Assembly (NCBI RefSeq): GCF_013337285.1 | Contig: NZ_SUPW01000003.1 | Coordinates: 248,001 to 312,000 of the forward strand | Source: Agrobacterium tumefaciens | GTDB lineage: Bacteria; Pseudomonadota; Alphaproteobacteria; Rhizobiales; Rhizobiaceae | Direction: 5' to 3' | DNA: 64,000 nucleotides | Part shown: piece after piece, positions 18,389 to 47,665 of the stretch | Position numbering within the stretch: position 1 is the first letter of the stretch | Layout of the letters: every line of letters begins with the position of its first letter | Made by a program: the position numbers and the translations under genes | Notes under the pieces: model-generated | Databases searched by the model: none | Told to the model about the DNA's origin: nothing | Seen by the model: only the letters and a program-made list of their open reading frames with translations

Positions 18389-19552
18389 CTACACCGCCAC
18401 CGGCGTAATCCAGCGCGGGTCGGTGCTTTCCGCGCTATCCACCACCGCTTCCACAAAGGCCACGCCCTTCAACCCGTCATAGGCAAGCGGAATATTGCGG
18501 CCAATCGCACCCGGCTCGCGGCTCGCCTTGCGGGCACGGATGGCTTCCGCAAAACCGGCATAAAGGTTGGCGAAGGCTTCCAGATATCCCTCCGGGTGAC
18601 CGGGCGGGGTGCGTGTTCGGACCCTTGCGTCTTCGGAAAGATCATCCGCGCCCCGCTTGATGGTCTGCACACGCCCGTTAAGCGGTGTATAGACGAGTTC
18701 GTTCGGCTGCTCCTGAAACCATTGCAGGGAGCCGGTCGCGCCGAAAACCCGCAGACGCACGCCGTTGGAATTACCGAGCGCCACCTGTGACGACCACAGG
18801 AGGCCCCGCGCGCCGCCGTCATAACGCATCATCACATGGGCATTGTCATCCAGCGCCCGCCCCGCCACGAAAGTGGCAAGATCGGCGGTAAGCGACTGTA
18901 GTTTCAGCCCGGTCACGAAGCCAGCCAGATGATAGGCATGGGTGCCGATATCGCCGATGGAGCCGCCGCGGCCGTTCTTCTTCGGGTCGGTGCGCCATGC
19001 CGCCTGGGCATTGCCCTGCTGTTCGATGGCCGTCGCCATCCATTCCAGCGGATATTCCACCTGTACGGTCCGAACCTCGCCGATCTCACCGGCCGCCACG
19101 CGCATACGGGCTTCATGCACCATCGGATAGCCGGAATAGGTATAGGTGACCCCCACAAAGCGGCCGCTTTCCCGCGACAGTTTTTCCAGCGCGATGGCGT
19201 CCGCCAGCGTCGCAGTCAGCGGTTTTTCGCAGATCACGTCAAAACCCGCCTCGATCAGCGCTTTCGCGATCGGGTAGTGGGTGAAATTCGGCGTGCAGAT
19301 CGCAACAGCGTCGACACGATCCTCGCGGGAAATCTCCCCGGCGATCAGGTCGTGATAGCTGCCATAGCTGCGGGCCGGGTCGAGCCCTTCATTGATCGCA
19401 AAGGCGCGGCCCTTTTCGGGGTCGACATCGAAGGCCCCGGCCACCAGCACCCATTTGCCATCAAGACGCGCGGCGAGACGGTGGATATTGCCGATATAAG
19501 CGCCCTGACCGCCGCCGATCATGCCCAGACGAAGTGGTCTTTCGATACTCAT
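18389..19552 (-). CDS. Gfo/Idh/MocA family oxidoreductase
   Basis: A 387-residue NAD(P)-dependent sugar or cyclitol dehydrogenase. The N-terminal Rossmann fold has GMIGGGQGAYIGNIH (GxGGxxG type); the EKPLTATLADA motif with its conserved Lys sits near residue 110; the GGSIGDIGTHAYHL segment near 205 supplies the family's catalytic Asp and His. Last gene of the leftward iolD-iolE-SDR-TIM-barrel unit; its start shares a base with the stop of the isomerase gene (TAATG), so the pair probably works on the same intermediate. Substrate is not readable; an inositol stereoisomer or a keto-glycoside are both possible. Confidence 0.85.
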   Translation of the reverse strand: MSIERPLRLGMIGGGQGAYIGNIHRLAARLDGKWVLVAGAFDVDPEKGRAFAINEGLDPARSYGSYHDLIAGEISREDRVDAVAICTPNFTHYPIAKALIEAGFDVICEKPLTATLADAIALEKLSRESGRFVGVTYTYSGYPMVHEARMRVAAGEIGEVRTVQVEYPLEWMATAIEQQGNAQAAWRTDPKKNGRGGSIGDIGTHAYHLAGFVTGLKLQSLTADLATFVAGRALDDNAHVMMRYDGGARGLLWSSQVALGNSNGVRLRVFGATGSLQWFQEQPNELVYTPLNGRVQTIKRGADDLSEDARVRTRTPPGHPEGYLEAFANLYAGFAEAIRARKASREPGAIGRNIPLAYDGLKGVAFVEAVVDSAESTDPRWITPVAV

Positions 19553-20613
19553 TATTCCTCCAGCCCCAACATGGCGCGGTTGGCATTGCGGTTCGCGCCG
19601 GATTTGACGAAATCGTCAAAGGCGCGGTCCGAAACGCGGATGATGTGGTCGGCGATGAAACGTGCGCCTTCAGACGCGCCGTCTTCCGGGTTTTTGACGA
19701 AACATTCCCACTCCAGCACCGCCCAGCCATCGAAGCCATACGTGGTGAGCTTGGTGAAGATCGCCCCGAAATCGACCTGCCCGTCGCCGGGGCTTCGGAA
19801 GCGGCCGGCCCTTTTGGACCACGGCTGATAACCGCCATAGGCGCCTGATTTTCCGTCTGGACGAAACTCGGCATCCTTGACGTGGAAGGTTTTGATCCGT
19901 TCGTGATAATGGTCGATGAAGGCGAGATAATCCATTCCCTGCAGAACCAGATGCGAGGGATCATACATCAGGTTCGCCCGGGGATGCTCCTTGACCTTGT
20001 CGAGAAACATCTCCCAACTGTGGCCGTCATGCAGGTCTTCGCTGGGATGGATTTCATAGCAGACATCCACGCCATGGGCGTCGAAGTCATCGAGGATCGG
20101 CGTCCAGCGGCGGGCAAGCTCGTCAAAGCCTTCCTCCACCAGCCCTTCCGGCCATTGTGGATAAGGATAAAGATAGGGCCATAAAAGCGCCCCGGGGAAG
20201 GTCACGTGGCGGTCGATGCCGAGGCGCTTTGAGGCGCGGGCGGCAAAGCGCAGTTGTTCCTCGGCCCATGCCCGACGCCTTGCGGGATTGCCGCGCACAT
20301 GCTCCGGCGCAAAACTGTCCATGATCGCGTCATGGGCGGGATGCACCGCCACAAGCTGCCCGGTGATGTGGGAGGCGAGTTCGGTGATCTCCAGCCCGTG
20401 CTCGCCGAGCATGCCCTTCAGATCATCACAATAGGCATCGCTTTCCGCTGCCTGTTTCATGTCGATCAGGCGCGTATCCCAGGTGGGAATCTGCACGCCC
20501 TTGAAGCCCTTGGCCGAGGCCCACGCCGCCAGCGAGGCAAGCGAATTATAGGGCGCCTCATCCGCGGCGAACTGCGCCAGAAAGACGCCAGGCCCCTTGA
20601 TGGTCCGCATCAT
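19552..20613 (-). CDS. Sugar phosphate isomerase/epimerase family TIM-barrel protein
   Basis: A 353-residue xylose-isomerase-like TIM barrel. Metal-site signatures are YEIHPSED near residue 180, MYDPSHLVLQG near 215, FHVKDAEF near 245 and VLEWECF near 320. The start ATGATG at 20613 has GGAGG seven bases upstream. Barrels of this length pair with Gfo/Idh dehydrogenases in many rhizobial loci and have been linked to epimerisation, inosose isomerisation or cleavage of 3-keto-glycosides; which applies here is unknown. It is one of two such barrels in the locus, the other being iolE. Confidence 0.82.
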   Translation of the reverse strand: MMRTIKGPGVFLAQFAADEAPYNSLASLAAWASAKGFKGVQIPTWDTRLIDMKQAAESDAYCDDLKGMLGEHGLEITELASHITGQLVAVHPAHDAIMDSFAPEHVRGNPARRRAWAEEQLRFAARASKRLGIDRHVTFPGALLWPYLYPYPQWPEGLVEEGFDELARRWTPILDDFDAHGVDVCYEIHPSEDLHDGHSWEMFLDKVKEHPRANLMYDPSHLVLQGMDYLAFIDHYHERIKTFHVKDAEFRPDGKSGAYGGYQPWSKRAGRFRSPGDGQVDFGAIFTKLTTYGFDGWAVLEWECFVKNPEDGASEGARFIADHIIRVSDRAFDDFVKSGANRNANRAMLGLEE

Positions 20614-20614
20614 C

Positions 20615-21427
20615 TTATTCCTCCAGCTTTTTCGCCGGCACCGGCGCGTCGTCGTAACCACCATAGACCGACTGATCGAAGGGGATCACGGCGCCCGTCA
20701 TCATGCCGCTGTCGCCGGATGCCATCCACAGGATGGCGCGGGCCACTTCGAGTGGATCGAGGATGCGCCCGAACGGCTTTGCCGCCGCCGCACGGTCGAT
20801 GAAATCGGGATCACCGGTCTCGGAGAGGACGAGCTTGCGCTCGTGATCGGAATTCATCCAGCCGATATCGAGCTGGTTCACATGGATACGATGGCGCATC
20901 AACGAAAAGCCGGCATGGCGGGTGACCGTGGCAAGCGCGCCCTTGGACGCCGCATAAGGCGCAAGGAAAGGCTGGCCTGTCAGACCCGACATTGATCCGA
21001 CATTAACGACACGACCCTCGATCCCCTCGCGGATCATCACCTTTGCTGCATCCTGAATGAGAAAGAATGGCGCACGCGTGTTGACCGCGAACATCCGGTC
21101 GAAAAGCTCGGGCGTCGTGTTGAGCATGTTGCCGCGATCTGTCAGCCCCGCCGCATTGACGAGAATATCGACCCGTCCGAAGCGTTTGTCCGTCGCCGGA
21201 ATGATACTGCGGACATCATCGATATCTCCGAGATCGGCCGCTACCATCTCGACGGGCACGCCCGATTTCTGCGTGATGGCATCAGCGACTGCCTGTCCCT
21301 TTTCCACGCCGCGCCCGACGATGACGATCCCTGCCGCACCCGCCTGTGCAAACACCTGCGCAACGGCTGCGCCCAGACCCTGGGTTCCGCCAGTAATAAC
21401 GGCGATCTTTCCTTCAATGCTGTTCAT
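20615..21427 (-). CDS. Short-chain dehydrogenase/reductase
   Basis: A 270-residue classical SDR. The cofactor motif is TGGTQGLG near residue 12, NAAG appears near 90, the catalytic Ser lies in VNVGSMSG, and the YAASK active site is near residue 158. The start overlaps the iolE stop by four bases. Within an inositol-type locus it probably oxidises or reduces a cyclitol or a derived sugar acid; cofactor preference is not clear by eye. Confidence 0.87.
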   Translation of the reverse strand: MNSIEGKIAVITGGTQGLGAAVAQVFAQAGAAGIVIVGRGVEKGQAVADAITQKSGVPVEMVAADLGDIDDVRSIIPATDKRFGRVDILVNAAGLTDRGNMLNTTPELFDRMFAVNTRAPFFLIQDAAKVMIREGIEGRVVNVGSMSGLTGQPFLAPYAASKGALATVTRHAGFSLMRHRIHVNQLDIGWMNSDHERKLVLSETGDPDFIDRAAAAKPFGRILDPLEVARAILWMASGDSGMMTGAVIPFDQSVYGGYDDAPVPAKKLEE

Positions 21428-22317
21428 TTCACGACCTCATAACCAGCGGCGTCCATGACGCGCAACAATTCCCTGTGTCCCTTGCGGGCCATGTCCAGCG
21501 GCGGGTTCTTGACCGGGTCCTGCTCCGCCTCGACCACGAACCAGCCCTCGTAACCTTTCGACGCCAGCGCCTTGACGATTGCCCCGAAATCCAGGCTGCC
21601 ATCGCCCGGCACCGTAAAGGCGCCCTTGATGACGGCATCGAGGAAACTCTCCCGGCTCCTGTCCAGTCCGTCGACAACCTCACGCCGGATATCCTTGGTG
21701 TGGACATGGGTGATGCGGCCATGGTGGTTTTCGATGACGCGCATGACGTCCCCGCCCGCAAAGGCCATGTGCCCGGCGTCAAACAGCAGGGGAACGGAAG
21801 AATGTTTCATGAAGAAATCAAGTTCCGGCTCGGTCTCCACCACGGCCGCCATATGGTGATGGTAGGAAATCGGCATGCCCTTTGCCGCGCACCAGTCGGC
21901 AAAGTCGGACATCTTGCGGCCATAGGCCGCCATGCCGGCCTCGTCGAGCCTTGGCTTCGTGGCAAGCGGGGCGGAACGCACGCCCTGAATGGAACGCGCC
22001 GTTTCGCCATAAACGACGCAGGGCGCGCCGGCGGCGATGAAGAATTCCATCTGCTGCGCGATGCGGTCTTTCTCCGCCTCGATGTCGCCATCCAGCAGCA
22101 GGCCGGAAAACCAGCCACCGCACACCGATATGCCGTAGCGGTCGAGGATCGGCCCAAGCTGCGCCATATCCATCGGAAACCGGCGTCCGGTCTCCATGCC
22201 GGTAAAGCCCGCCTCGCTTGCCTGCCGCAGGCATTCCTCAAGGCTCACATCGTCGGAAAGCTCGGCCAGATCGTCATTCCACCAGGCAATCGGCGCAATA
22301 CCAAGTCTTGCTTTCAT
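21424..22317 (-). CDS. iolE: Inosose dehydratase (2-keto-myo-inositol dehydratase)
   Basis: IolE removes water from scyllo-inosose to give the diketone that IolD hydrolyses. The 297 residues show the family start RLGIAPIAWWNDDLAEL, EAGFTGMETGRRFP, ISYHHHMAAVVE (metal-binding His/Glu), LLFDAGHMAFAGGD, HVHTKDIRR, and the end WFVVEAEQDP. The start ATG at 22317 lies one base after the iolD stop (22319), so iolD and iolE are co-translated. A frame extending to 22449 runs into iolD and is a shadow. Confidence 0.9.
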   Translation of the reverse strand: MKARLGIAPIAWWNDDLAELSDDVSLEECLRQASEAGFTGMETGRRFPMDMAQLGPILDRYGISVCGGWFSGLLLDGDIEAEKDRIAQQMEFFIAAGAPCVVYGETARSIQGVRSAPLATKPRLDEAGMAAYGRKMSDFADWCAAKGMPISYHHHMAAVVETEPELDFFMKHSSVPLLFDAGHMAFAGGDVMRVIENHHGRITHVHTKDIRREVVDGLDRSRESFLDAVIKGAFTVPGDGSLDFGAIVKALASKGYEGWFVVEAEQDPVKNPPLDMARKGHRELLRVMDAAGYEVVK

Positions 22318-22318
22318 C

Positions 22319-24190
22319 TCAGACCCCCACTCGCTGCGCCTTGCGGATGTTTTCCTGCGCAGCGCGGGCGGCACGCACGGCCTCGAAGCTGGAAACAGTC
22401 GGAACCCCGACATCCCAGTCGGCATCGCCCGGCACCCATTTCCACGCATCGGAAACGATGGAGATGACGGTCACGCCATCATTGCCCTGCGCCCAGATCA
22501 TCGCGTCTTCAAGATCGGCAAGGCTCTCGGCCTTGCGCGCATGGGCGCCCATGGCTTCCGCATGTTTGACGAAATCCACATGCAGCGGATTTTCCCTGTC
22601 CCTGATGCGGCAATCTGCCAGCAGATTGTTGAAACCGGGAACGCCCTTGGCCTGCTGCAGACGGTTGATGACGGCATAGCCGCCATTATCGCAGACCACC
22701 ACGATCATCCGGTGCCCGGTGAGTGCGGCCGAATAAATATCCGAGTTCATCATCATGTAGGTTCCATCCCCCAGCATGACGATTGGAACGCCGCCGGCAC
22801 CGCCCGGCCCTTCCTGCGCCATCGAGCAGCCCCAGCCGGCGGCGATTTCATAACCCATGCAGGAAAAACCGAATTCGCAGTCGAACGTATTCGGGTTCTT
22901 GACCCGCCATCCCTTGGTCACCTCACCCGGCGTTCCACCCGCCGCCGCGATCAGCGTATCTTCGGGCCGCGCAACCCGGTTCAGCACGCCGACCACCTGC
23001 GCATAAGACGGAACCGGCGCATTGGTGACACGCTGGTGTTCGTCGAGCAGATTATCCCATTCTGCGAACAGCGTTTTGGCCCGCTGCATATGGGTGGCAT
23101 CGGCCTTGTAGGCACCAAGCACGTGGTCCAGTTCGTCAATCGCCTCGAGCGCATCGCCGACGACGGAAAGCGCCCGGTGTTTCACCGCGTCGAAGCGGGC
23201 GGCATTGACGGAAATGAACTGCGCATCGCGGGAGAACGCCGTCCAGGAACCCGTCGTGAAATCCTGAAGCCGGGTACCGATCGCCAGCACGACATCCGCC
23301 TCTTTCGCCAGCGCATTCGCCGAGGTCGATCCGACGATGCCGATCGGCCCGGCATGGACCGGATGGTGATGGGTAAGCGCGCCCTTGCCGGCGATGGTTT
23401 CAACCACTGGAATGCCGCGCTTTGCGGCAAACTCGGCAAGGCGTTCTTCCGCCAGCGAATAACGCACGCCACCGCCGGAAATGATAAGCGGCCGTTTTGC
23501 CTGCGCCAGCAGCCGCGCGGCGGCGGCCACGGCGTCACGGTCCGGACGCGGGCGCGGAATTTTCCAGACCTTCGGTTCAAAGAAGACCGCCGGATAATCG
23601 AAAGCGATTTCCTGCGTATCCTGTGCGAGACCGATAAAGGCCGGGCCGCAATCGGCCGGATCGAGCATGGTGGCGACCGCCTGCGGCAGCGATTGCAGCA
23701 ATTGTTCCGGCAGCACGATCCTGTCCCAGTAACGCACCACGGATTTGAACGCGTCATTAACGGTCAATGTCGGATCGCCGAAATGCTCGACCTGCTGCAG
23801 AACCGGGTCCGGCAGGCGGCTTGCGAAAGTATCGCCCGCAATGAGGAGAACGGGCAGCCGGTTGGCCATGGCGACACCGGCGGCGGTTACCATGTTCAAC
23901 GCCCCCGGCCCGATCGAGGTCGCGGCGACCATGATCTGCCTGCGCCGCTTTGCCTTGGCAAAGCCGATTGCGGCAAGCGCCATGGATTGCTCGTTCTGCC
24001 CGCGCCAGGTCGGCAACTTGTCCTGCACCGTCTCCAGCGCTTCGGAAAAGCATGTGACGTTGCCGTGCCCGAAAATGGCGAACACGCCGGCAAACAGCGG
24101 AACGCGCTCTCCGTCGATCTCGGTAAACTGGTTGCACAGGTAACGTACTAGCGCCTGAGCCATGGTCAGGCGTAAGGTCTTTGCGGTCAT
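22319..24190 (-). CDS. iolD: 3D-(3,5/4)-trihydroxycyclohexane-1,2-dione acylhydrolase
   Basis: A thiamine-diphosphate enzyme that opens the cyclitol ring to 5-deoxy-glucuronate. The 623 residues start with the very typical TLRLTMAQALVRYL, then FGHGNVTCFSEALE, the cofactor Glu in QNEQSMALAAIGFA near residue 75, a central Rossmann domain, and the ThDP motif GDGTYMMMNSDIY ... VCDNGGY around residues 470-500. First gene of the leftward unit, with GGAGGAGG six bases before the ATG at 24190. Its presence with iolE is the best evidence that the locus handles an inositol. Confidence 0.92.
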   Translation of the reverse strand: MTAKTLRLTMAQALVRYLCNQFTEIDGERVPLFAGVFAIFGHGNVTCFSEALETVQDKLPTWRGQNEQSMALAAIGFAKAKRRRQIMVAATSIGPGALNMVTAAGVAMANRLPVLLIAGDTFASRLPDPVLQQVEHFGDPTLTVNDAFKSVVRYWDRIVLPEQLLQSLPQAVATMLDPADCGPAFIGLAQDTQEIAFDYPAVFFEPKVWKIPRPRPDRDAVAAAARLLAQAKRPLIISGGGVRYSLAEERLAEFAAKRGIPVVETIAGKGALTHHHPVHAGPIGIVGSTSANALAKEADVVLAIGTRLQDFTTGSWTAFSRDAQFISVNAARFDAVKHRALSVVGDALEAIDELDHVLGAYKADATHMQRAKTLFAEWDNLLDEHQRVTNAPVPSYAQVVGVLNRVARPEDTLIAAAGGTPGEVTKGWRVKNPNTFDCEFGFSCMGYEIAAGWGCSMAQEGPGGAGGVPIVMLGDGTYMMMNSDIYSAALTGHRMIVVVCDNGGYAVINRLQQAKGVPGFNNLLADCRIRDRENPLHVDFVKHAEAMGAHARKAESLADLEDAMIWAQGNDGVTVISIVSDAWKWVPGDADWDVGVPTVSSFEAVRAARAAQENIRKAQRVGV

Positions 24191-24230
24191 CTCGCCTCCT
24201 CCTGCGGATGGTTGTTGATATGTTTTGGAA

Positions 24231-24269
24231 TACATATTGACAAATTCAGCGCTTTGCAATGATTATTGC
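24231..24269. promoter_or_regulatory. Divergent iolD/iolG-like promoter with palindromic operator
   Basis: The palindrome GCAATGATTATTGC (24256-24269) lies between the divergent units. For the rightward genes, TTGACA (24237-24242) and TGATTA (24260-24265) are 17 bases apart and the palindrome covers the -10. For the leftward genes, TTGCAA (reverse strand, 24259-24254) and TATGTA (24236-24231) are also 17 bases apart and the palindrome covers the -35. One bound protein could thus control both directions. The same palindrome recurs before the RpiR gene and the ABC transporter operon. Confidence 0.6.
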
Positions 24270-24294
24270 CAAATACCTCGGGAGGAAAATTTCA

Positions 24295-25302
24295 ATGCTG
24301 AGAATTGCAGTGCTTGGCGTGGGCCGCATCGGCCGCATGCATGCGGAAAACATCGTCGCTCATCCACGTGCGACCTTGGCTGGTATCTTTGATGTATACG
24401 AGCCCTCGGCGAAAGAAATTGCCGAAAAGCTTGATGTGACACGATTTGAGTCGGCGGAGGCGGTTTTCACTTCACCCAAAGTCGATGCCGTGCTGATCGC
24501 CACCTCAACCCCCACCCATGCGGACCTGCTGGAAAAGGCGGTTGCGGCGGGAAAACCTGTGCTCTGCGAGAAGCCCATCGATCTCTCCCTCGACCGCGTC
24601 AACGCCTGTGCAACAAAAATTGCCGGCAGCGGCGTACCGATCATGCTCGGCTTCGTCCGGCGTTTTGACAGCGGACACCGCGCCGTGCGTGAGGCGATCA
24701 AAAACGGAACGATAGGCGATCTGCATCAGGTCGTCATCACCTCGCGCGACCCCGGCATGGCGCCCGCCGCCTATATCGAAATGTCGGGCGGCATTTTCCG
24801 CGACATGACGATCCACGATTTCGACATGGCCCGCTTCATTCTGGGTGAAGAGATCAGCCAAGTCTCGGCCACCGGTTCGCGGCTGGTCGACCCGGCGATG
24901 ATGGAAAAATGCGACGACTACGACACCGTAACCGTGGTGCTGAAAACCGCTTCGGGCAAACAATGCACAATCAGCAATTCGCGGCGCGCGGTTTATGGCT
25001 ACGATCAGCGGGTGGAAGCTTTCGGAAGTGCCGGCATGGCGATTTCCGAAAACCGGACGCTCAATCACCTGCGCCTCCACACCGAAAGCGGCACCGACCG
25101 GGCAGCACCGCTGATGAACTTCTTCATCGACCGGTATTCCGATGCCTTCGCAGCGGAAATCAGCGCCTTCGTCGAGGCCGTGGAACAGGGCAAGGCACCG
25201 GAGGTCGGCTTCGAAGACGGCCGGCTGGCATTGCTTCTCGCCGAAGCGGCAATCCGCTCCGTCGCTGAAGGGCGCACCGTCAACACAAGCGAGATGGGGT
25301 AA
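24295..25302 (+). CDS. Inositol 2-dehydrogenase-like Gfo/Idh oxidoreductase
   Basis: A 335-residue dehydrogenase close to IolG in layout: Rossmann motif AVLGVGRIGRMHAENI at the N-terminus, VLCEKPIDLSLDRV with the conserved Lys near residue 97, GGIFRDMTIHDFDMARF near 165-180 with the catalytic Asp and His, and C-terminal ASGKQCTISNSRRA and YGYDQRVEAFGSAG. It would oxidise an inositol to an inosose with NAD+, feeding IolE. The ATG at 24295 has GGAGG 9 bases upstream; the frame starting at 24259 lies in the promoter. First gene of the rightward unit. Confidence 0.85.
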   Translation: MLRIAVLGVGRIGRMHAENIVAHPRATLAGIFDVYEPSAKEIAEKLDVTRFESAEAVFTSPKVDAVLIATSTPTHADLLEKAVAAGKPVLCEKPIDLSLDRVNACATKIAGSGVPIMLGFVRRFDSGHRAVREAIKNGTIGDLHQVVITSRDPGMAPAAYIEMSGGIFRDMTIHDFDMARFILGEEISQVSATGSRLVDPAMMEKCDDYDTVTVVLKTASGKQCTISNSRRAVYGYDQRVEAFGSAGMAISENRTLNHLRLHTESGTDRAAPLMNFFIDRYSDAFAAEISAFVEAVEQGKAPEVGFEDGRLALLLAEAAIRSVAEGRTVNTSEMG

Positions 25303-25305
25303 ACC

Positions 25306-26736
25306 ATGTACGCGAATTTTGGACTTTTCATAGATGGCCGCTGGCTTGCCGGTGCCGCAACAGGTGAGGTCGTCTCTCCGGTCACCGGCGCGGTGCTGGG
25401 CGAGGTGACGCTTGCTAACGCCGATCAAACCCGCAGCGCGATCAACGCGGCCGCAGCCGCCCTTCCGAAACTGCGCGCCATGGGCGGCTTCGCACGCGCC
25501 GAAGCGCTGCACAGGGCCGCCGACGAAATGCTGCGCCGTGCCGATGAAGGCGCAACGATGATCTCGCTGGAGACCGGTAAACCGATTGCCCAGGCTGGCC
25601 GCGAATGGACGCTTTCCTGCGACCAGTTCCGCTGGTTCGCCGAAGAAGCGCGCCGCATCTATGGCCGCATCGTCGACAGCCGGGTGCCCGGCGGACGGTT
25701 TGAGGTGACCCGCGAGGCCGTGGGCATCGTCGGCGCTTTCACCGCCTGGAATTTTCCGGCCGCCCTTCCGGCCCGCAAACTCGCCCCGGCGCTCGCCGCC
25801 GGATGCCCCGTCGTGCTGCGCCCCTCATCCCAGACGCCGGGTGTCGCGATGGTCATGGTCGACTGCCTGAGGGCCGCCGGCTTGCCCGATGGCGCCGTCA
25901 ATCTGGTTGTCGGCTCGACCGCCGATACCTATGGCCCGATCATGGCGGACAAGCGTGTGCGCAAGGTGTCGCTGACGGGCTCCACCCGGGTCGGCCAGCA
26001 AATGATCCGTGACGCTGCTGAGACCGTGAAGAAGGTCTCGATGGAACTGGGCGGCAATGCGCCCCTCATCATTTATGACGATGCGCATCTCGACAACGCG
26101 CTCGATCTTGCCGTGCCCACCAAATTCGCCAATTGCGGCCAGGTCTGCGTCACGCCGGATCGCATCTTCGTTCACGAGAGCCTGCATGACGCCTTTGTCG
26201 ACGGTTTCGTGACCCGTGCGGCCAAGATCAGGCTCGGTGACGGGCTTGACCCCGATACCGGGATGGGGCCGCTCATCAATGCCGGTCGCCTTGAGGACAT
26301 CGAGGCGGTGGTTGCCGAGGCCGTGCGCGCCGGCGCAAAAATCGCCCATGGCGGCAAGCGCCCGTCGCATCTGAACCACGGTTTCTTTTTCGAACCCACC
26401 GTGCTGACCGGCGTGACGGACACGATGAGGGTTTTTGCCGAAGAGAATTTCGGGCCGATTGCCGCAATCACCCGTTTCAGCACCGAGGAAGAGGTTCTGG
26501 AGCGGGCCAATGCCTCGGATATGGGCCTTTCCGCCTATGCATTCACCCGTTCCCCGGACAGGGCACGGCGAACCGTGGCGGCGCTGAAATCCGGCATGGT
26601 CGGCATCAACAGTTTCGCGCTCGCCGCATCCGAAGCGCCTTTTGGCGGCACGAACCATTCCGGCATGGGGCGTGAGGGTGGTATCGAGGGGATAAGCGAT
26701 TATCTCGAAACCAAACTCGCCCAGATCGTCTTCTAA
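25306..26736 (+). CDS. NAD(P)-dependent semialdehyde dehydrogenase family protein
   Basis: A 476-residue aldehyde dehydrogenase of the succinate-semialdehyde (GabD) type. Active-site landmarks: AWNFPAALPARKLAPALAAG, the Glu in MELGGNAPLI near residue 248, and the nucleophilic Cys in FANCGQVC near residue 282. It starts three bases after the iolG-like stop. It is not an MmsA/IolA-like CoA-acylating enzyme by its motif set, so malonate semialdehyde to acetyl-CoA is unlikely to be its job. It could oxidise the aldehyde of 5-deoxy-glucuronate or a small aldehyde released by the neighbouring aldolase. Confidence 0.86.
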   Translation: MYANFGLFIDGRWLAGAATGEVVSPVTGAVLGEVTLANADQTRSAINAAAAALPKLRAMGGFARAEALHRAADEMLRRADEGATMISLETGKPIAQAGREWTLSCDQFRWFAEEARRIYGRIVDSRVPGGRFEVTREAVGIVGAFTAWNFPAALPARKLAPALAAGCPVVLRPSSQTPGVAMVMVDCLRAAGLPDGAVNLVVGSTADTYGPIMADKRVRKVSLTGSTRVGQQMIRDAAETVKKVSMELGGNAPLIIYDDAHLDNALDLAVPTKFANCGQVCVTPDRIFVHESLHDAFVDGFVTRAAKIRLGDGLDPDTGMGPLINAGRLEDIEAVVAEAVRAGAKIAHGGKRPSHLNHGFFFEPTVLTGVTDTMRVFAEENFGPIAAITRFSTEEEVLERANASDMGLSAYAFTRSPDRARRTVAALKSGMVGINSFALAASEAPFGGTNHSGMGREGGIEGISDYLETKLAQIVF

Positions 26737-26763
26737 AAACAGACATTCTTGCAGGAGAATCCC

Positions 26764-27576: not shown

Positions 27577-28545
27577 ATGCCGAACCTTCTCGTGGCCGGA
27601 AAACTTCATCCTTCCGGCGAGGCGATGCTGCGCGATCTGCCGGCCCTCGGCTTCTCCATCCGCTATATCGAAGATGTCTCCGAAGCCTCCTACGCACCCT
27701 TCATCGAAGAAGCGGATGCAATCGTCATCCGCACACAACCGCTCTCGGCAGCCACCATTGCAAAGGCCGGACGGCTGAAAGTGGTGTCCCGTCATGGGGT
27801 GGGTTACGATAGCGTCGATCTTGCCGAACTCAACCGGCGCAACATCGCGCTCACCATCGTCGGCGATGTCAATTCCGTCTCCGTCGCCGAACATGCGATG
27901 ATGCTGCTGCTGGCGGCGGCAAAGCGGGCCATACTCGCCGACCGTGCGGTTCGCGAACCGGGGCAGTGGAGCTGGCGCAACAGGCTGGAGCAGCAGGAAA
28001 TATCCGGCAAGAACCTCCTCATCCTCGGTTATGGCCGGATCGGGCGGCATCTCGCCAGAATGGCTTCGGGTTTCGGCATGCATATCCGCGCCTACGACCC
28101 CTACCTGCTGCAATCGGGATGGCCCGAGGGGGCGACAAGACCCGTATCGCTGGAAGAGGGCCTGCCCTGGGCCGACTATATTTCCGTACATATTCCCAAG
28201 GGAGCAAGCCCGGCAATCGGGGCTGCCGAAATCGCTCTCATGAAACCCGGTGTCGTCCTGTCAAACACGGCCCGTGGCGGTGTCGTTTGTGAAAAGGCGC
28301 TCAGCGAAGCGCTCGCCTCGGGTCATGTCGGCGCGGCCGGGCTTGATGTCTTCGACGACGAGCCGCCGGAAAGCTCCTCCCCGCTGCTGTCGCAGTTCAA
28401 TACCGTCCTGTCGCCGCATATTGCCGGGCTTACGACGGAATGCGGGGAGAGGATGGCCATCGCGTCCATCCAGAACGCCGTCAATTATCTGAAAGGGACG
28501 ATCGATCCCGGCCTCATCGTCAATCCGGAATTTGCCCATGTCTGA
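27577..28545 (+). CDS. D-isomer-specific 2-hydroxyacid dehydrogenase
   Basis: A 322-residue NAD(P)-dependent dehydrogenase of the phosphoglycerate/hydroxypyruvate reductase family. The cofactor fold has ILGYGRIGRHLARMA near residue 148; the catalytic triad is Arg in SNTARGGVV, Glu in FDDEPPE and His in SPHIAGLTTE. It starts directly after the aldolase stop and its own stop overlaps the next gene by eight bases. It may reduce hydroxypyruvate from the aldolase, or oxidise the C2 hydroxyl of the sugar acid before cleavage. Confidence 0.87.
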   Translation: MPNLLVAGKLHPSGEAMLRDLPALGFSIRYIEDVSEASYAPFIEEADAIVIRTQPLSAATIAKAGRLKVVSRHGVGYDSVDLAELNRRNIALTIVGDVNSVSVAEHAMMLLLAAAKRAILADRAVREPGQWSWRNRLEQQEISGKNLLILGYGRIGRHLARMASGFGMHIRAYDPYLLQSGWPEGATRPVSLEEGLPWADYISVHIPKGASPAIGAAEIALMKPGVVLSNTARGGVVCEKALSEALASGHVGAAGLDVFDDEPPESSSPLLSQFNTVLSPHIAGLTTECGERMAIASIQNAVNYLKGTIDPGLIVNPEFAHV

Positions 28546-29662
28546 AAAACCCGTTCTTCGCGTCGGCCTCATCGGCACCGGCTTCATGGGCAAAGCCCAT
28601 GTCTTCGGTTTTGCCTCCGCCCAGAAGGTCTTCGACCTGCCCTACCGGATCGAACTGCACACCGTTGCCGACATCACCGAAGATGCGGCTGCACGGGCGG
28701 CAGTGGATTTTGGTTTTGCCCATTCCACGGCGGACTGGCGCAGCATCATCGCCGATCCGGATATCGACCTCGTCGACATCACCGCGCCGAACGCCCTGCA
28801 CAAGGAAATGGCGCTTGCCGCCATTGCCGCCGGCAAACATGTCTATTGCGAAAAGCCGCTCGCACCGCTGGCGTCGGATGCCGGCGAGATGGCTGCAGCC
28901 GCGACGGCGCGCGGCGTCAAAACACAGGTGGGTTTCAACTATCTCTGCAATCCCATGCTGCGGCTGGCGCGGGACATGGTGGCAGCGGGCGAACTCGGCA
29001 AGATACGCGGTTATCGCGGTCTGCATGCCGAAGATTACATGGCCGACGCCGCAGGCGCCTTCACCTTCCGCCACGATCCGGCCGGCGGCGGTGCGCTTGC
29101 CGATATCGGCTCGCACGCGCTTGCCACAGCCGAATTCCTGCTCGGTCCGATAACCCAAGTGATGGGGGATTGCGTCACGCTGATAGCCGAGCGGCCGGAT
29201 GGCAAGGGTGGCACACGCAGGGTGGAAGTGGATGATGTGGGACGCGCTTTCCTGCGTTTCGCCAATGGTGCGCAGGGTTCGGTCGAGGGCAACTGGATCG
29301 CCACCGGCCGCAAGATGCAGCATGATTTCGAGATTTACGGCGACAAGGGTGCGCTTTATTTCACGCAGGAGCGCTTCAACGAGCTTCATTTCTATTCCGC
29401 CGCCGATCCGGCCGGCCGCCGCGGCTTCCGCAGGATCGAGGCATCTCCTGACCACGCGCCCTATGGCCGTTTCTGCGTCGCGCCCGGTCATCAGCTCGGC
29501 TTCAACGACCTGAAAGCCATAGAGATTGAAGGTTATCTCAGGGCAATCGCGGGACAGGCACCAGAGCCTTTCGGCTTTGCTGCCGGCCTGCGCATCCAGC
29601 GACTGGTCGAGACGATCCAGCACTCGTCATCCGCACGGCAATGGATGGCTGTCGATGCGTGA
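28538..29662 (+). CDS. Gfo/Idh/MocA family oxidoreductase
   Basis: The third Gfo/Idh enzyme of the locus, 374 residues. The Rossmann start is VGLIGTGFMGKAHVFGF; VYCEKPLAPLASDAG carries the conserved Lys near residue 105; GGGALADIGSHALATAEF near 195 supplies the catalytic Asp/His; FEIYGDKGALYF is the usual domain-closing segment. The ATG at 28538 lies inside the end of the hydroxyacid dehydrogenase gene. Having three such enzymes suggests that several cyclitol isomers, or oxidation and re-reduction of one, are handled. Confidence 0.85.
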   Translation: MSEKPVLRVGLIGTGFMGKAHVFGFASAQKVFDLPYRIELHTVADITEDAAARAAVDFGFAHSTADWRSIIADPDIDLVDITAPNALHKEMALAAIAAGKHVYCEKPLAPLASDAGEMAAAATARGVKTQVGFNYLCNPMLRLARDMVAAGELGKIRGYRGLHAEDYMADAAGAFTFRHDPAGGGALADIGSHALATAEFLLGPITQVMGDCVTLIAERPDGKGGTRRVEVDDVGRAFLRFANGAQGSVEGNWIATGRKMQHDFEIYGDKGALYFTQERFNELHFYSAADPAGRRGFRRIEASPDHAPYGRFCVAPGHQLGFNDLKAIEIEGYLRAIAGQAPEPFGFAAGLRIQRLVETIQHSSSARQWMAVDA

Positions 29663-29712
29663 AATCCCGGATTGAGCGACGGGCTGCGGGCCTTCATGCC
29701 TCTTGGAAAACC

Positions 29713-29726
29713 GCAATAAATATTGC
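29713..29726. promoter_or_regulatory. Palindromic operator before the RpiR gene
   Basis: GCAATAAATATTGC, a perfect GCAAT-N4-ATTGC palindrome, lies 12 bases upstream of the RpiR-family start codon, in the 75-base gap after the Gfo/Idh gene. It is the same motif as in the divergent iolD promoter and fits autoregulation. Confidence 0.6.
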
Positions 29727-29737
29727 AAGATCATGCC

Positions 29738-30622
29738 ATGAAGCAACAACCGCAGCCCGTCGACCCTCCGAAAGATTACGAAGAACTGATCCGCCTCATC
29801 CATGATCGCCATGATCAGATGAGCAAGACCTATCAGCGGATTTCCGTCTATCTGACGCAGAACCCCAATGAAGTCGCCGTGCATTCGGTCAATACCATTG
29901 CCGAGCGGCACAACATCCACGCCTCCAGCTTCGTGCGGTTTGCGCAGTCGCTGGGCTACAAGGGTTTCAAGGAGCTGCAGGCGCTGTTCCAGAAACGGCT
30001 GGCGACGGCTGCGCCGGGCTTTGAGGCACGCGTGCGCGCGCTCGATGACGAATTGCAGAGCCGCGAGGACCGTTCGGAATACGGTTTCCTTCACGATCTT
30101 GTCGTCAGGGACATCGCCTCCTTACAGGACCTGCTCGAACGGATCAGTGCCGAGCAGCTCGGCACCGCCGCCGATCTGATCGAGGCCGCCGGCACCGTCT
30201 ATCTCGTCGGCCAGCTGCGCTCCGCGCCGGTGGCGGAGCTGCTGCGTTACATCCTCACCATGCTTGGCAAGCAATGTATCCTTCTTGATCCGGGCGGCGG
30301 GCTCGCCACCCATATGGCGCGGACGATGAGAACCGGCGACGTACTGATCGCGGTGTCGTTCCGATTTTACGCGACGGAAGTAGTGAATATCGTCGAGGAG
30401 GCGGAAAAGATCGGTGTGCCGACCGTAGCGATTTCCGACAGTACCCTGTCACCGCTGGCAAAATCGGCAAAAGTCCTGTTCGCCGTTCCAGAGCATGATT
30501 ACAGCTTTTCCCGGTCTCTGGCAGCGCCGATGTGCCTTGCGCAGGCTCTGGCGGTTGCGGTGGCCGCGCGCGTTCAGAAGAACGAGACCGCGCCGCGCAT
30601 TCCGACGGTGACCGGCCTCTAG
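29738..30622 (+). CDS. RpiR-family transcriptional regulator
   Basis: A 294-residue regulator with an N-terminal HTH_6 domain (about residues 15-90; VHSVNTIAERHNIHASSFVRFAQSLGYKGFKELQ) and a C-terminal SIS domain (about 130-260; AGTVYLVGQLRSAPVAELL and VLIAVSFRFYATEVVNIVEEA) that senses a sugar phosphate or related ligand. The ATG at 29738 was chosen; a TTG at 29723 would sit inside the palindrome. The inositol regulator IolR of Sinorhizobium meliloti is also RpiR-type. The three palindromes of this locus are its likely targets. It converges with the TauE-like gene, 13 bases apart. Confidence 0.9.
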   Translation: MKQQPQPVDPPKDYEELIRLIHDRHDQMSKTYQRISVYLTQNPNEVAVHSVNTIAERHNIHASSFVRFAQSLGYKGFKELQALFQKRLATAAPGFEARVRALDDELQSREDRSEYGFLHDLVVRDIASLQDLLERISAEQLGTAADLIEAAGTVYLVGQLRSAPVAELLRYILTMLGKQCILLDPGGGLATHMARTMRTGDVLIAVSFRFYATEVVNIVEEAEKIGVPTVAISDSTLSPLAKSAKVLFAVPEHDYSFSRSLAAPMCLAQALAVAVAARVQKNETAPRIPTVTGL

Positions 30623-30635
30623 GCACCAACATCCC

Positions 30636-31397
30636 TCAAAGCCCCGTCACACCGTCCCAGATCAGCTTCACCGCTACCAGCGCCACGGAAATATAAGTCA
30701 GGGGGTAAAAGATCGAGGCACGCATGTGGCGCACCGTCCAGGCACCGAGCCATGTGGAGACGATAGCCAGCGGCACCATCAAGGCGGCACGGCCGAGATT
30801 TTGCGCGCCGAAACCTCCGAGCGCCGCATAGGGCACGAGTTTCAGGACATTGGTGATGGCAAAGAACATCACATTGGTGCCGGTGAAAACCTTCGGATCC
30901 ATACGCAGCGGAAGCAGATAGACCTGCAGCGGTGGCGAGCCGGCATGAGCGACGAAGCTGGTGTAACCCGCAAGCAGGCTCCAAAACCGTCCCGCCATCG
31001 GCCGCTCCTTGGCTGCCATCAAAAGAACGCCTCTGGCCAGAACGACGCGCAACACGAACACGGCAGAGACCAGGCCGACGATCAGGCGCACCACGGCGTC
31101 CGAAGTGATCTCGGCTGTCATCCAACCAAGGCCGATGCCGAGAACAGCTGCCGGCAGAAGCTGGCGCATGATCCGCCAGTCGACCCATTTGCGCCAGGCC
31201 GCCACACCAACCATATCCATGACAACGAGGATCGGCAGCAGGATGGCGGCCGCCGTGACCGGCGACATCACCAGCGCCATCAGCGGCACGCCAAGCAGGC
31301 TCATGCCGCCGAGCCCGCCCTTGGAAAGCCCGACCAGCACGACGGCAAGCACGGTGACGCCCAGTTCCAGAGGAGAGTTGAAAAGGTTCAAGTGCAT
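30636..31397 (-). CDS. TauE/SafE-family membrane permease
   Basis: A 253-residue protein with about eight hydrophobic segments and the family start LGVTVLAVVLVGLSKGGLGGMSLLG. TauE/SafE proteins are linked to transport of anions such as sulfite, sulfoacetate or organic acids. It lies 51 bases behind the ABC permease gene in the same orientation, so it is probably the last gene of the transporter operon. A role in exporting or importing an acidic intermediate of the pathway is only a guess. Confidence 0.82.
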   Translation of the reverse strand: MHLNLFNSPLELGVTVLAVVLVGLSKGGLGGMSLLGVPLMALVMSPVTAAAILLPILVVMDMVGVAAWRKWVDWRIMRQLLPAAVLGIGLGWMTAEITSDAVVRLIVGLVSAVFVLRVVLARGVLLMAAKERPMAGRFWSLLAGYTSFVAHAGSPPLQVYLLPLRMDPKVFTGTNVMFFAITNVLKLVPYAALGGFGAQNLGRAALMVPLAIVSTWLGAWTVRHMRASIFYPLTYISVALVAVKLIWDGVTGL

Positions 31398-31448
31398 CTC
31401 CTCGGCATTGCCGTCGGCACCCCTGCCCGGGCACCGCGCGCATGGATT

Positions 31449-32462
31449 TCAGCCCTTCCGGAGCCGGGCTTTTTGACGGTAGACATCAGCAACGACCGCG
31501 CTGACGATGATCAGTCCCTTGACGATCTCCTGATAGTAAGCATCCACGCGCAGAAATGTGAAGCCCGACATCATCAACCCCAGAATCACCGTGCCGATAA
31601 CGGTGCCGAAAATCCTACCCCGCCCACCGGAAAGGGACGTGCCGCCGATGACAGCCGCGGCAATGGCGTCGAGTTCATACATCATGCCCATGCCTGCCTG
31701 CGCGGTTTCCGCACGGGCGGCGGTGACAATGCCAGCGAGGCCCGCGAGCAGGCCGGCAATGGCATAGACCTTGACCAGATGCAGCTGGACATTGATGCCG
31801 GACACCCGGGCCGCCTGCATGTTCGCGCCGATTGCATAGGTAAACTTGCCGTAACGCGTATAGCGCAGGGCAATGTGGAAGGTAACGGCGACAAGCAGGA
31901 AGATGACGACAGGCCATGCGCCCGAGCCGATCGATGCGAAGCTCTCTGTCGGGAAGGAGATCGGCTGCCCCTTCGTATACCACTTGGCGATGCCGCGTGC
32001 GGTCACCATCATGCCCAGCGTGGCGATAAAGGGCGGTATTCCCGTCACCGCGATGAGCATGCCGTTAACGATGCCGGCGATCAGGCCGAGACCGAGGCCG
32101 ACGGCCAGCGGCACCACCACGGGCATATCGGTCAGTGCCGGATAGATCGCCCGGGCAAAATCGCTGCTTTGCGCAAAACTCATGGCGATCATGGCCGTCA
32201 TCGCCACCACCGAGCCCGAACTGAGATCGATGCCGCCGGTGATGATGACCTGGGTGACCCCAACGGCGATGATGCCGACAACGGAGACCTGCAGGATCAT
32301 GATCGTCAGGCGCTGCGGGCTGCCGAGAAAGCTCTGCCCCTGCACGAACCATCCAAGCAGTTCGAAGACGAGGGCGACGCCGATCAGCACGGTCAGAATA
32401 TTCAGTTCCTGCGGTAGCTTCCGCCTTTTCCGTTCGACCGGTTCGGTCTGTACGCTATCCAT
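31449..32462 (-). CDS. Sugar ABC transporter permease (RbsC family)
   Basis: A 337-residue inner-membrane permease of the ribose/inositol type with about nine hydrophobic segments. Family landmarks: GGIDLSSGSVVAMTAMIAMS near residue 75, GIPPFIATLGMM near 140, YAIGANMQAARVSGI near 205, and AAVIGGTSLSGGRGRIFGTVIG near 260. It follows the ATPase gene by 35 bases. A single permease gene implies a homodimeric channel, as in this family. Confidence 0.92.
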   Translation of the reverse strand: MDSVQTEPVERKRRKLPQELNILTVLIGVALVFELLGWFVQGQSFLGSPQRLTIMILQVSVVGIIAVGVTQVIITGGIDLSSGSVVAMTAMIAMSFAQSSDFARAIYPALTDMPVVVPLAVGLGLGLIAGIVNGMLIAVTGIPPFIATLGMMVTARGIAKWYTKGQPISFPTESFASIGSGAWPVVIFLLVAVTFHIALRYTRYGKFTYAIGANMQAARVSGINVQLHLVKVYAIAGLLAGLAGIVTAARAETAQAGMGMMYELDAIAAAVIGGTSLSGGRGRIFGTVIGTVILGLMMSGFTFLRVDAYYQEIVKGLIIVSAVVADVYRQKARLRKG

Positions 32463-32497
32463 AATTTTTCCTCCCCGGCATTGCCGCCGTCGCAGCC

Positions 32498-34033
32498 TCA
32501 GCGGGCCGCCAGTTCCATGATTTTGACTTGGTCCGCTTCGGCGCGATCGAGAATCCCGGTCATATGCCCCTCGTGCATGACGAGGATCCGGTCCGACATG
32601 CCGAGAACCTCCGGCAGTTCCGACGAGATCATGATGACGGCGACACCTTCCTTCGCCAGACTGGAAATCAGGCGATGGATTTCCGCCTTGGCGCCGACAT
32701 CGATGCCGCGTGTCGGCTCGTCGAGAATGAGGATGGCGGGCTTGGTCAGAAGCCAGCGGGCGATCAACACCTTCTGCTGGTTGCCACCGGACAGGTTTTC
32801 GATCCGCTCATCGAGATCGGGCGTCTTGATACGCAACGCCTTTTTCATGTCTTCGCACAGCACCGTCAGCCCGCGCTCATCGACATAACCCATCGCCGCA
32901 TGGCCATTCTGGAGGGCCGCGATCTGCATGTTCTCGAGAATCGAAAGTGGCAGAAAACAGCCGGTTGCCTTGCGGTCCTCCGTCAGCAGCGCCATGCCCC
33001 TGCGCATCGCATCCGCCGGCGAACTAATCGTGACCGGAACGCCGTCGATGCGGATCGTCCCTTCATTCGCCGGCACCACTCCGAAAATCGCCTCGGCGAC
33101 GTTGGAGCGGCCGGAGCCCACCAGCCCCGCCACGCCGAGGATTTCGCCGCGATGCAGATCGAAGGAAATATCGTGGAAAACCCCGGCCAAACCGAGATCC
33201 CGAACCTCAAGAACGACATCGCCGATCAAGGCTTCCTGCTTGGGAAACATATTGGTGATCTCGCGGCCGACCATCATTTTTATGATGTCGTCGCGCGTGA
33301 CATCGGTGCTCGCATGAGTGCCGACATATCGCCCGTCCCGAAACACGGAAAACTCGTCGGCGATCTCGAACAGCTCGCTCATCTTGTGGGTGATGTAGAC
33401 AATGCCGATATTGCGTGACCGCAGATCGCGGATGATATCGAAAAGATGTGCGACTTCGGACTCCGTCAGTGCCGATGTCGGCTCATCCATGATGAGCACG
33501 CTGGACTGGTAGCTGACGGCCTTGGCGATTTCGACCATCTGCCGCTGCGCCACCGTCAGCGTGCTGACCTCCGCCGCCGGATCGATATTGATCTTCAGCT
33601 GGTTAAACAGCGCCCGCGTCTCCGCCAGCATTTTCGCATGGTCTATGAGGCCGAGACGATTTTTCGGCTCGCGGCGGATCCAGATGTTCTCCGCCACAGT
33701 CATCCAGTCCATCAGCGCCAGTTCCTGATGGATCATGGCGATGCCGCGCTCCAGCGCATCGCGGGGGCTTTTCAGGCGGACGTCTTCCCCCCGTAGCCTC
33801 ACGGTGCCGGCATCCGGGCTATAAATCCCGGCAATAATCTTCATGAGTGTCGACTTGCCGGCGCCGTTTTCGCCCATCAGCGCGTGCACGGAACCCGGCC
33901 GCAGGCGGAACTGCACCTCATCCAGCGCGACGACGCCCGGAAATTCTTTGCGTACCCCCTCGATTTCAAGAAGGTAGGGGCCGGCGGCCTGCTTGAAGCG
34001 TTCAATCGCCTCTAAGGTGGTTGTGGAAATCAT
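32498..34033 (-). CDS. Sugar ABC transporter ATPase (RbsA/MglA type)
   Basis: A 511-residue protein with two fused nucleotide-binding domains. The first has Walker [10 protein letters not shown] near residue 55, signature [15 protein letters not shown] near 160 and Walker [12 protein letters not shown]; the second has a degenerate Walker A ([16 protein letters not shown] near 300), signature [15 protein letters not shown] near 410 and Walker [15 protein letters not shown]. This arrangement is normal for ribose, galactose and inositol importers. Middle gene of the binding protein-ATPase-permease operon. Confidence 0.95.
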
Positions 34034-34119
34034 ATCTCACCCGTCCTTTATCCGGCCAGCGGCCGGGCCGTGATCTGCTGTGCCGGCGACCGAGGCAGTG
34101 CCCGGCCGCCGGCCACAAA

Positions 34120-35049
34120 TCAGTTGCTGGACTTGTATTGAGCGACATTGGCGGGGGTGACGAGTTCAAAGGGCACATCGACCTTGTGCTCGAATTTTTC
34201 ACCACGTGCGATTTTCAGCACGGTATCGAGAGATCCCTCGCCCTGCCCCTTGGCGGACTGGTAGACTGTAACGTCGAGGTCGCCCGCTTCCATCGCGGCA
34301 AGCGCATCCTGCGTTGCGTCAACACCGGCAACAATGACATCCTTCATGCCGACGCCCGAAGATTTCAGCGCCTGGATCGCGCCGAGCGCCATCTCGTCAT
34401 TGTTTCCAAGCACGATGGTCGGCTTCATACCGGATGTGATCCAGTTCGTCATCAGGTCCATGGCCGGGGTGCGCATCCAGTTCGCGGTCTGCGCGTCCAG
34501 CACCTTGATGTCCTTGCAGGCATCGCTTTTAAGGACACGTTCGGCTGCCGCGGTGCGGCCGCGCTGACCGGTGGTGCCAAGCTGGCCCATGAGAATGACC
34601 GAATCACCCTTGCCGGCCGCAAGCCTGCAAACCTCTGTCGCCTGCAATTCGCCAGCCTGCTCCTCATTAGAGCCGACCCATGCCTGCTTGTCCGGGAATT
34701 TTTCCATATTGGCCGGAAGCATGTTCACGAAGACCAGCGGAATACCCGCTTGATCGGCGATCTTTGACATCGCCCTGCCGGAATCCGCATCCACCAGCAT
34801 GGTGATGATGCCATCCACGCCAGCCGCCACGAAGTTTTCGATCTGCGACTGCTGGCGGGCAATATCGCCCTGCGCATCCTCCATCTGGACTTCCACGCCA
34901 AGATCCTTGGCATGGCGCTGAATGTTGTGGCGCAACACGGTGAGATAATTGTCGTCAAAGAGCGACATCGCCACGCCAATTTTCTCGGCGTGGGCAGCGC
35001 TTGCCATCAGGGCGCAGAATGCGGTTGTGATTACGATTTTTTTGATCAC
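34120..35049 (-). CDS. Sugar ABC transporter periplasmic binding protein
   Basis: A 309-residue periplasmic binding protein of the ribose-binding (Peripla_BP_4) type. The signal peptide spans about residues 1-22 (ITTAFCALMASAAHA). The mature part shows KIGVAMSLFDDNYLTVLR, QQSQIENFVAAGVDGIITM, and VLGNNDEMALGAIQALKSSG. The start is GTG at 35049 with GGAGGAG eight bases before it; the longer frame to 35103 lacks a ribosome site. Given the locus, an inositol or related polyol is the likely ligand, but no residue reading proves it. It is the first gene of the transport operon. Confidence 0.92.
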   Translation of the reverse strand: MIKKIVITTAFCALMASAAHAEKIGVAMSLFDDNYLTVLRHNIQRHAKDLGVEVQMEDAQGDIARQQSQIENFVAAGVDGIITMLVDADSGRAMSKIADQAGIPLVFVNMLPANMEKFPDKQAWVGSNEEQAGELQATEVCRLAAGKGDSVILMGQLGTTGQRGRTAAAERVLKSDACKDIKVLDAQTANWMRTPAMDLMTNWITSGMKPTIVLGNNDEMALGAIQALKSSGVGMKDVIVAGVDATQDALAAMEAGDLDVTVYQSAKGQGEGSLDTVLKIARGEKFEHKVDVPFELVTPANVAQYKSSN

Positions 35050-43031: not shown

Positions 43032-43149
43032 CAGTATTCTCCCGCAACAGACATGTCGGGCGGGACTCTGGTCAAATCCACGCATGGTTGTCAACGCATC
43101 TTCGTCAATTCGCAACAGGAGGATGCGTGGAGGCCAGCAGACGGGGAGG

Positions 43150-47541: not shown

Positions 47542-47665
47542 ATCGGATCTTCTTGTAGTGAACCACTGGTAGTCGATCGGACGAACAAATTAACACTTAT
47601 CACAGACCGGCAATATTTATTGTCCAGAATATAAACCAAAATCTACTTTTTTAAATTTCTAAAAA

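Follow-up and report, generated by a model that had tools for sequence, protein, structure and literature searches.

The stretch of DNA analyzed here, referred to as the window, is 64,000 nt of Agrobacterium tumefaciens. It contains a locus (genes at 18389–35103) in which members of the inositol families IolD, IolE and IolG are encoded beside an aldehyde dehydrogenase (ALDH), an HpcH/HpaI class II aldolase (HpaI) and a D-2-hydroxyacid dehydrogenase (D2HDH). The layout is that of two divergent arms, one on the minus and one on the plus strand:

18389–19552, minus strand: GFO1, accessory Gfo/Idh/MocA oxidoreductase paired with IolEL (Pfam PF01408/PF22725; PDB 3V5N 389 bits, 7D5N 306 bits)
19552–20613, minus strand: IolEL, xylose-isomerase-like TIM barrel, relative of 2-hydroxy-3-keto-glucal hydratase (8RO4, 526 bits)
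20615–21427, minus strand: SDR, short-chain dehydrogenase (NF004847 369 bits, cut-off 240)
21424–22317, minus strand: IolE2, inosose dehydratase family (TIGR04379 387 bits, cut-off 290)
22319–24190, minus strand: IolD2, trihydroxycyclohexane-dione hydrolase family (TIGR04377 797 bits, cut-off 715)
24256–24269, no strand: palindromic operator-like site GCAATAATCATTGC in the iolD2/iolG2 intergenic region (pattern GCAAT-N4-ATTGC)
24295–25302, plus strand: IolG2, inositol 2-dehydrogenase family (TIGR04380 425 bits, cut-off 355)
25306–26736, plus strand: ALDH, similar to succinate-semialdehyde dehydrogenase (PF00171; PDB 3JZ4 390 bits)
26764–27576, plus strand: HpaI (PF03328; SwHKA 6R62/7O5I 205 bits)
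27577–28545, plus strand: D2HDH, with phosphoglycerate dehydrogenase and glyoxylate reductase relatives (PF02826/PF00389)
28538–29662, plus strand: GFO2, Gfo/Idh/MocA oxidoreductase, relative of scyllo-inositol dehydrogenase (4FB5 302 bits; 5YA8 281 bits)
29713–29726, no strand: palindrome again, immediately in front of rpiR (exact match)
29738–30622, plus strand: RpiR/SIS-family regulator (PF01418 and PF01380)

The start of IolD2 was placed at the ATG behind GGAGGAGG, with its open reading frame (ORF) reaching 24259, and the start of IolEL was picked from the alignment to 8RO4. IolD2, IolE2 and IolG2 all score above the NCBIfam equivalog cut-offs, and IolEL is a weak IolE match (TIGR04379 66 bits, cut-off 290). 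Profile scores and tblastn confirmed both the genes named in the original prediction and its claim that iolB, iolC and iolA are absent from the window. Using the genome's own IolB and IolC as tblastn queries (E 1e-5), no match was obtained in the whole window. The query for methylmalonate-semialdehyde dehydrogenase (MMSDH, the IolA enzyme) matched only the locus ALDH in the window. At just 29% identity to this query, ALDH was rejected as a candidate IolA; in the PDB comparison, it resembles succinate-semialdehyde dehydrogenase.

The window locus is a second inositol gene set

A genome without iolBCA was rejected as an explanation, as a canonical iolC(J)-iolD-iolE-iolB set is found on another contig and MMSDH is encoded elsewhere. 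IolB is located at C3:68814–69560 (333 bits) and is the sole match in the genome. Its neighbors on contig C3 are a fused IolC/IolJ (NF047869 743 bits, cut-off 600), IolD1 (916 bits), IolE1 and a Gfo/Idh/MocA oxidoreductase, and the MMSDH gene lies at C14:146341–147774 (645 bits). Between the two sets of this genome, IolD1 and IolD2 are 47% and IolE1 and IolE2 40% identical. The window locus is a second inositol set, which in this organism comes on top of the ordinary route instead of replacing it.

Conservation of the gene neighborhood

Genome contigs were scanned for IolD2, and the best 80 of 440 relatives were kept; their loci are the basis of all counts out of 80. ALDH was detected in 69/80 loci, HpaI and D2HDH in 68/80 each, and the three jointly (in the following, the trio) in 66/80, the joint count using a shorter length limit than the single-gene counts. 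Further members are SDR (75/80), IolE2 (67/80), RpiR (64/80), IolG2 (62/80) and GFO2 (60/80). IolEL and GFO1 are found in 36/80 loci, always together and never apart. IolC occurs in 5/80, IolB in 4/80 and IolD1 in none of the 80 loci. Other conserved neighbors, grouped by clustering and assigned by eye from their N-termini (one checked with Pfam), are mostly ABC transporter and Gfo/Idh/MocA genes.

As a control, 17 canonical iolB loci (L101–L116 and L118) were fetched from genomes which also carry IolD2. HpaI, D2HDH and IolD2 were found in none of them, and the canonical stretch of the window's own genome (L002) holds a D2HDH relative of just 32% identity. Since the trio is conserved in 66/80 loci of the relatives, the neighborhood is not a matter of chance, and the trio as a chance neighbor of IolD2 was rejected in view of 0/17 canonical loci with HpaI or D2HDH. 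The full trio is missing from 14 loci. Of these, L024 and L049 run into contig ends, L074 and L077 run beyond the fetched stretch, six belong to Bradyrhizobium, and the remainder are L038, L073, L080 and L084. Judged by these comparisons, similar gene sets occur in many Proteobacteria.

IolD2 forms a separate clade

In a tree of 99 rows, all 81 IolD2 rows fall on one side of a branch with support 100. Long branches among the non-IolD2 rows make the placing of the latter unsure, and the 18 rows labeled IolD1 include two distant thiamine pyrophosphate enzymes (L099, L100). After dropping L099, L100 and L109, 29 alignment columns are fixed differently between IolD1 and IolD2. On this sequence comparison, IolD2 is a clade separate from canonical IolD1. 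The first-branching IolD2 row belongs to Silicimonas algicola (G043; loci L073 and L105), which, with this row as its only IolD over the cut-off beside IolB and IolC, possibly represents an intermediate state.

Three Acetobacteraceae loci (L149, L150 and L151 of genomes G201, G244 and G142, respectively) encode an IolD relative 56–58% identical to IolD2. It adjoins a gene common to all three, which in L151 encodes an ILVD/EDD-type dehydratase, and a metallo-beta-lactamase-fold gene is nearby. IolB was not found in G201, G244 and G142 at E 1e-60. Perhaps this arrangement is another variant of the lower half of the pathway.

A predicted operator shared by both arms

The palindrome GCAAT-N4-ATTGC is present at 24256–24269, between iolD2 and iolG2, and at 29713–29726, before rpiR. 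Genome-wide, exact matches to the pattern GCAATAWWYATTGC are confined to these two places, 24256 and 29713. Seven further places match it with one mismatch, none of which is on C3, the contig of the canonical set; a one-mismatch palindrome at C14:150008 lies approx. 2.2 kb from the MMSDH gene. Upstream of IolD2, GCAAT-N4-ATTGC was found in 47/80 loci. In contrast to these, it was found nowhere in 19 loci (L002 and L101–L118), and in L002 matches with three mismatches allowed were no more numerous than expected by chance.

Because exact palindromes exist only in the window locus and none at the canonical set, both arms probably share one predicted operator, and nothing points to its use by the canonical set. 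We infer that this predicted operator, GCAATNNNNATTGC, is read by the locus's own RpiR, and the window locus is probably regulated separately from the canonical set. The original prediction had allowed for an iolCBA set elsewhere in the genome, which, if co-regulated and sufficient, would speak against a special role of the locus. Such genes indeed exist, as iolC(J)DEB and MMSDH on other contigs, but an operator shared with the canonical set was not found.

A further copy of the palindrome is located outside of the locus at window positions 47610–47623; it has one mismatch or two, according to which pattern is applied.

Genomes without IolB and IolC

IolB was searched for in 49 of the 80 genomes, mostly isolates; these were preferred because a gene missing from a metagenome bin says little. 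Of these 49, 20 were tested for IolC, while MMSDH was looked for in 13 and in the genome of the window. IolB is absent in 8/49 genomes, although, as they are draft genomes, absence is no proof. IolC over the cut-off is absent in the same eight and present in the other 12 of the 20 tested. Four of the eight genomes contain the full module, namely Halomonas salipaludis, Komagataeibacter rhaeticus, Acetobacter malorum and A. senegalensis, and IolD2 is their sole IolD over the cut-off. The other four are Bradyrhizobium genomes with loci lacking the trio, one of which (G041) has IolD1 (943 bits).

These genomes bear on the function of the trio. According to one explanation, IolD2 feeds the ordinary IolB/IolC route, and the trio acts on an unrelated sugar acid which is imported together with the cyclitol. 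IolB is indeed present in 41/49 tested IolD2 genomes as well as in that of the window, and in some Paracoccaceae the module is followed by IolC (five loci) and IolB (four loci). In Silicimonas, IolD2 is the only IolD over the cut-off, yet IolB and IolC are present; HpaI is kept, there is no ALDH beside IolD2, and the best D2HDH match listed has 36% identity. All of this weighs against an independent lower half of the pathway in the module. On the other hand, four full-module genomes have neither IolB nor IolC, the trio follows IolD2 and is not in the 17 canonical loci, and one palindrome stands between both arms. We therefore consider it improbable that the trio has nothing to do with the IolD2 product.

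As a separate observation, 43 of 65 Acetobacteraceae genomes with an IolD match (E 1e-180) are without an IolB match (E 1e-60), many of them having a canonical-like IolD. In ten such IolB-less loci (L154–L163), no HpaI, IolB or IolC was seen.

Aldolase and its proposed products

MMSDH is encoded beside the module in loci of Pseudomonas (L019), Marinobacterium (L027 and L076) and Halomonas (L061), and no other locus of the 80 comes from a named gammaproteobacterium. No MMSDH of at least 40% identity was detected in the other 76 fetched stretches. An additional case is L147 from an Acetobacteraceae genome. Both Marinobacterium genomes possess a further MMSDH at the canonical locus, and MMSDH is present in 4/17 canonical loci. 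MMSDH acts on malonate semialdehyde, as established for IolA. Its position next to the module in five loci suggests that the aldolase releases malonate semialdehyde, with the locus ALDH presumably doing something else.

The closest solved structure to HpaI is SwHKA (205 bits), while the heptanedioate aldolases 4B5S and 2V5J score 123–124 bits. In the passages cited from PMC10099721, SwHKA is described as converting hydroxypyruvate and as crystallized with it, and its promiscuity is explained by aromatic residues at the place of a conserved leucine; no natural role of SwHKA was noted there. His51, Arg76, Ser123, Glu152 and Asp178 of HpaI are found in 69/69 rows (the window and 68 linked loci), and the class II catalytic and metal-binding residues are invariant over these rows. 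His220 is found in 68/69 rows and aligns with SwHKA Phe210, a position read by eye from the alignment. The 69 rows are a recount, as in a count of 72 rows the gene of the window and one unlinked gene had each been entered twice. The likeness to SwHKA fits hydroxypyruvate as the other product but is no proof of it.

HpaI relatives in Bradyrhizobium (42–46% identical) were considered as the trio missing there; they are probably not part of the same module. In a search of four Bradyrhizobium genomes, none of the D2HDH matches listed exceeded 42%. These distant relatives share the His, which is accordingly not special to the module and lends the proposed chemistry less weight. In L100 (9899–12376), the HpaI relative with His220 adjoins a gene of the galactarate/altronate dehydratase family and might be part of an aldarate route that involves dehydration.

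Proposed pathway

The arrangement suggests the following route. Inositol would be oxidized to inosose by IolG2 or GFO2, dehydrated by IolE2 to trihydroxycyclohexane-dione, and the ring would be opened by the hydrolase IolD2, giving a 5-deoxyuronate. ALDH would then oxidize C1 to form a 5-deoxyaldarate, and D2HDH, or alternatively SDR, would oxidize C2 to form a 2-keto-5-deoxyaldarate. The latter could be cleaved by HpaI to hydroxypyruvate and malonate semialdehyde, of which the first would be converted to glycerate and the second to acetyl-CoA by the MMSDH encoded elsewhere in the genome. The order of ALDH, C2 oxidation and HpaI cleavage is the one already put forward in the original prediction, and of the schemes considered it is the best supported, if only in part: it fits the linkage, the IolB/IolC-less genomes, the MMSDH neighbors and the likeness to SwHKA, while in this organism the locus is a second set. 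Protein families, linkage, the IolD2 clade, the IolB/IolC-less genomes, the MMSDH linkage and the palindrome are read directly from sequence, and from them we infer the reactions, the isomer, the order of steps and the binding of the regulator. On balance, the evidence somewhat favors a second, probably separately regulated cyclitol locus which combines an Iol-type upper half with an oxidative, kinase-free lower half.

A number of further observations detract from this interpretation. ALDH, HpaI and D2HDH are full length, yet score below every equivalog cut-off listed in NCBIfam, and because of this their substrates are not given by their families. L038, L073, L080 and L084 are uncut and lack part or all of the trio. 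In the six Bradyrhizobium loci and in the Acetobacteraceae loci L144 and L145, IolD2 occurs without ALDH, HpaI and D2HDH. Eight loci (L036, L037, L043, L046, L047, L063, L078 and L082) have the trio together with IolEL and GFO1 but neither IolE2 nor GFO2, which means that the upper half of the module varies. In Komagataeibacter, no MMSDH over the cut-off was found.

The assignment of D2HDH is also debatable, as D-2-hydroxyacid dehydrogenases often run as reductases. Roles could be exchanged, with SDR (or GFO2) oxidizing C2 of the 5-deoxyaldarate and D2HDH reducing the released hydroxypyruvate to D-glycerate. The nearest relatives of D2HDH, phosphoglycerate dehydrogenases and glyoxylate reductases, are in line with this, as is the presence of SDR in 75/80 IolD2 loci. 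However, 35 of these 75 SDR ORFs match the SDR of the window at 50–59% only, leaving one common role unsure, and C2 of glucarate is R, which fits a D-2-hydroxyacid dehydrogenase. We regard exchanged roles as rather unlikely.

Another question is the nature of the substrate. Instead of myo- or scyllo-inositol, the module could degrade another cyclitol (an isomer or a methylated or glycosylated form), leading to a 5-deoxyuronate stereoisomer which IolB cannot use. Both loci are kept in 41/49 tested hosts, and the 29 columns with different fixed residues in IolD1 and IolD2 would allow for a different isomer. Further IolG-like matches (24–30% identity) exist in many loci, and the IolEL/GFO1 pair of 36/80 loci, with IolEL scoring 526 bits to 2-hydroxy-3-keto-glucal hydratase, may serve a glycosylated or other cyclitol. 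Against this, IolG2 exceeds the inositol 2-dehydrogenase cut-off, and Silicimonas, with IolD2 only plus IolB and IolC, suggests that the IolB route is open to the IolD2 product. A product closed to IolB is thus a tentative explanation to which we give less than an even chance, although the module may serve a different inositol isomer, given that most tested hosts keep both sets.

Beyond the window, the same data raise the proposal of a widespread oxidative, non-phosphorylative lower inositol pathway in Proteobacteria, which does without IolB, IolC and IolJ and would be the sole inositol route in some Acetobacter, Komagataeibacter and Halomonas; we see the chances of this broader claim as evenly balanced. 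No paper on such an oxidative inositol route was found in the open-licence PMC literature. If true, bacterial inositol catabolism would have a second lower half, in which no kinase acts before the carbon–carbon bond is cut, and which would yield extra NADH, hydroxypyruvate and malonate semialdehyde. This would explain genomes with iolD but without iolB and iolC, whose absence alone would be no proof against inositol degradation. Finally, it would hint at what hydroxypyruvate-accepting HpaI aldolases do in nature; the papers cited here treat them as synthesis tools.

Neighboring genes

Downstream of rpiR, the locus continues with a membrane protein and a sugar transporter, which are rarely found with IolD2:

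30636–31397, minus strand: TauE/SafE-family membrane protein (PF01925; in 4/80 IolD2 loci)
31449–32462, minus strand: sugar ABC transporter permease (PF02653; close relatives in 8/80 IolD2 loci)
32498–34033, minus strand: sugar ABC transporter ATPase (PF00005; in 7/80 IolD2 loci)
34120–35103, minus strand: periplasmic sugar-binding protein (PF13407; in 6/80 IolD2 loci)

Beyond these genes (window 35503–43115), penicillin-binding protein 1C adjoins an ORF of 1845 aa without NCBIfam match, which we presume, from its pairing with penicillin-binding protein 1C, to be perhaps an alpha-2-macroglobulin.

Comparison with known systems

Expected next to the hydratase of the non-hydrolytic 3-keto-glycoside pathway are a glycoside lyase and a glycoside 3-dehydrogenase; the locus encodes a hydratase homolog and Gfo/Idh/MocA proteins. 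The locus could belong to that pathway and not to inositol catabolism, as IolEL is close to a hydratase of this chemistry. Yet IolEL and GFO1 occur in just 36/80 loci compared to 66/80 for IolD2 with the trio, and the IolD, IolE and IolG members exceed equivalog cut-offs, which makes this explanation very improbable.

Pl-scyllo-IDH (LgdA) of Paracoccus laeviglucosivorans aligns with GFO2 over nearly the full length (281 bits). PMC5969746 places lgdA, too, in a putative inositol cluster. For GFO2, however, the score to 4FB5 is higher (302 bits), and the paralog from the canonical locus scores higher to LgdA (319 bits); GFO2 is accordingly described as related to LgdA by sequence, and orthology is not claimed. 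With SwHKA from Sphingomonas wittichii (6R62), the locus HpaI shares the His, Arg, Glu and Asp as well as the Ser aligned with the resting metal site, but it has a His where SwHKA has Phe210.

The Thermotoga inositol pathway (IolM/IolN/IolO) is a known route without IolB and IolC. The window locus also does without these two enzymes, but it has IolD, which the Thermotoga pathway is not known to include. For the epimerase IolO, the locus has only a 26-bit match (NF041099, cut-off 300). With the canonical Iol pathway (iolGEDBCJA), the locus has in common the families IolG, IolE and IolD and, as a proposed product, malonate semialdehyde. It differs in having ALDH, HpaI and D2HDH in place of IolB, IolC/J and IolA, and hydroxypyruvate would replace dihydroxyacetone phosphate.

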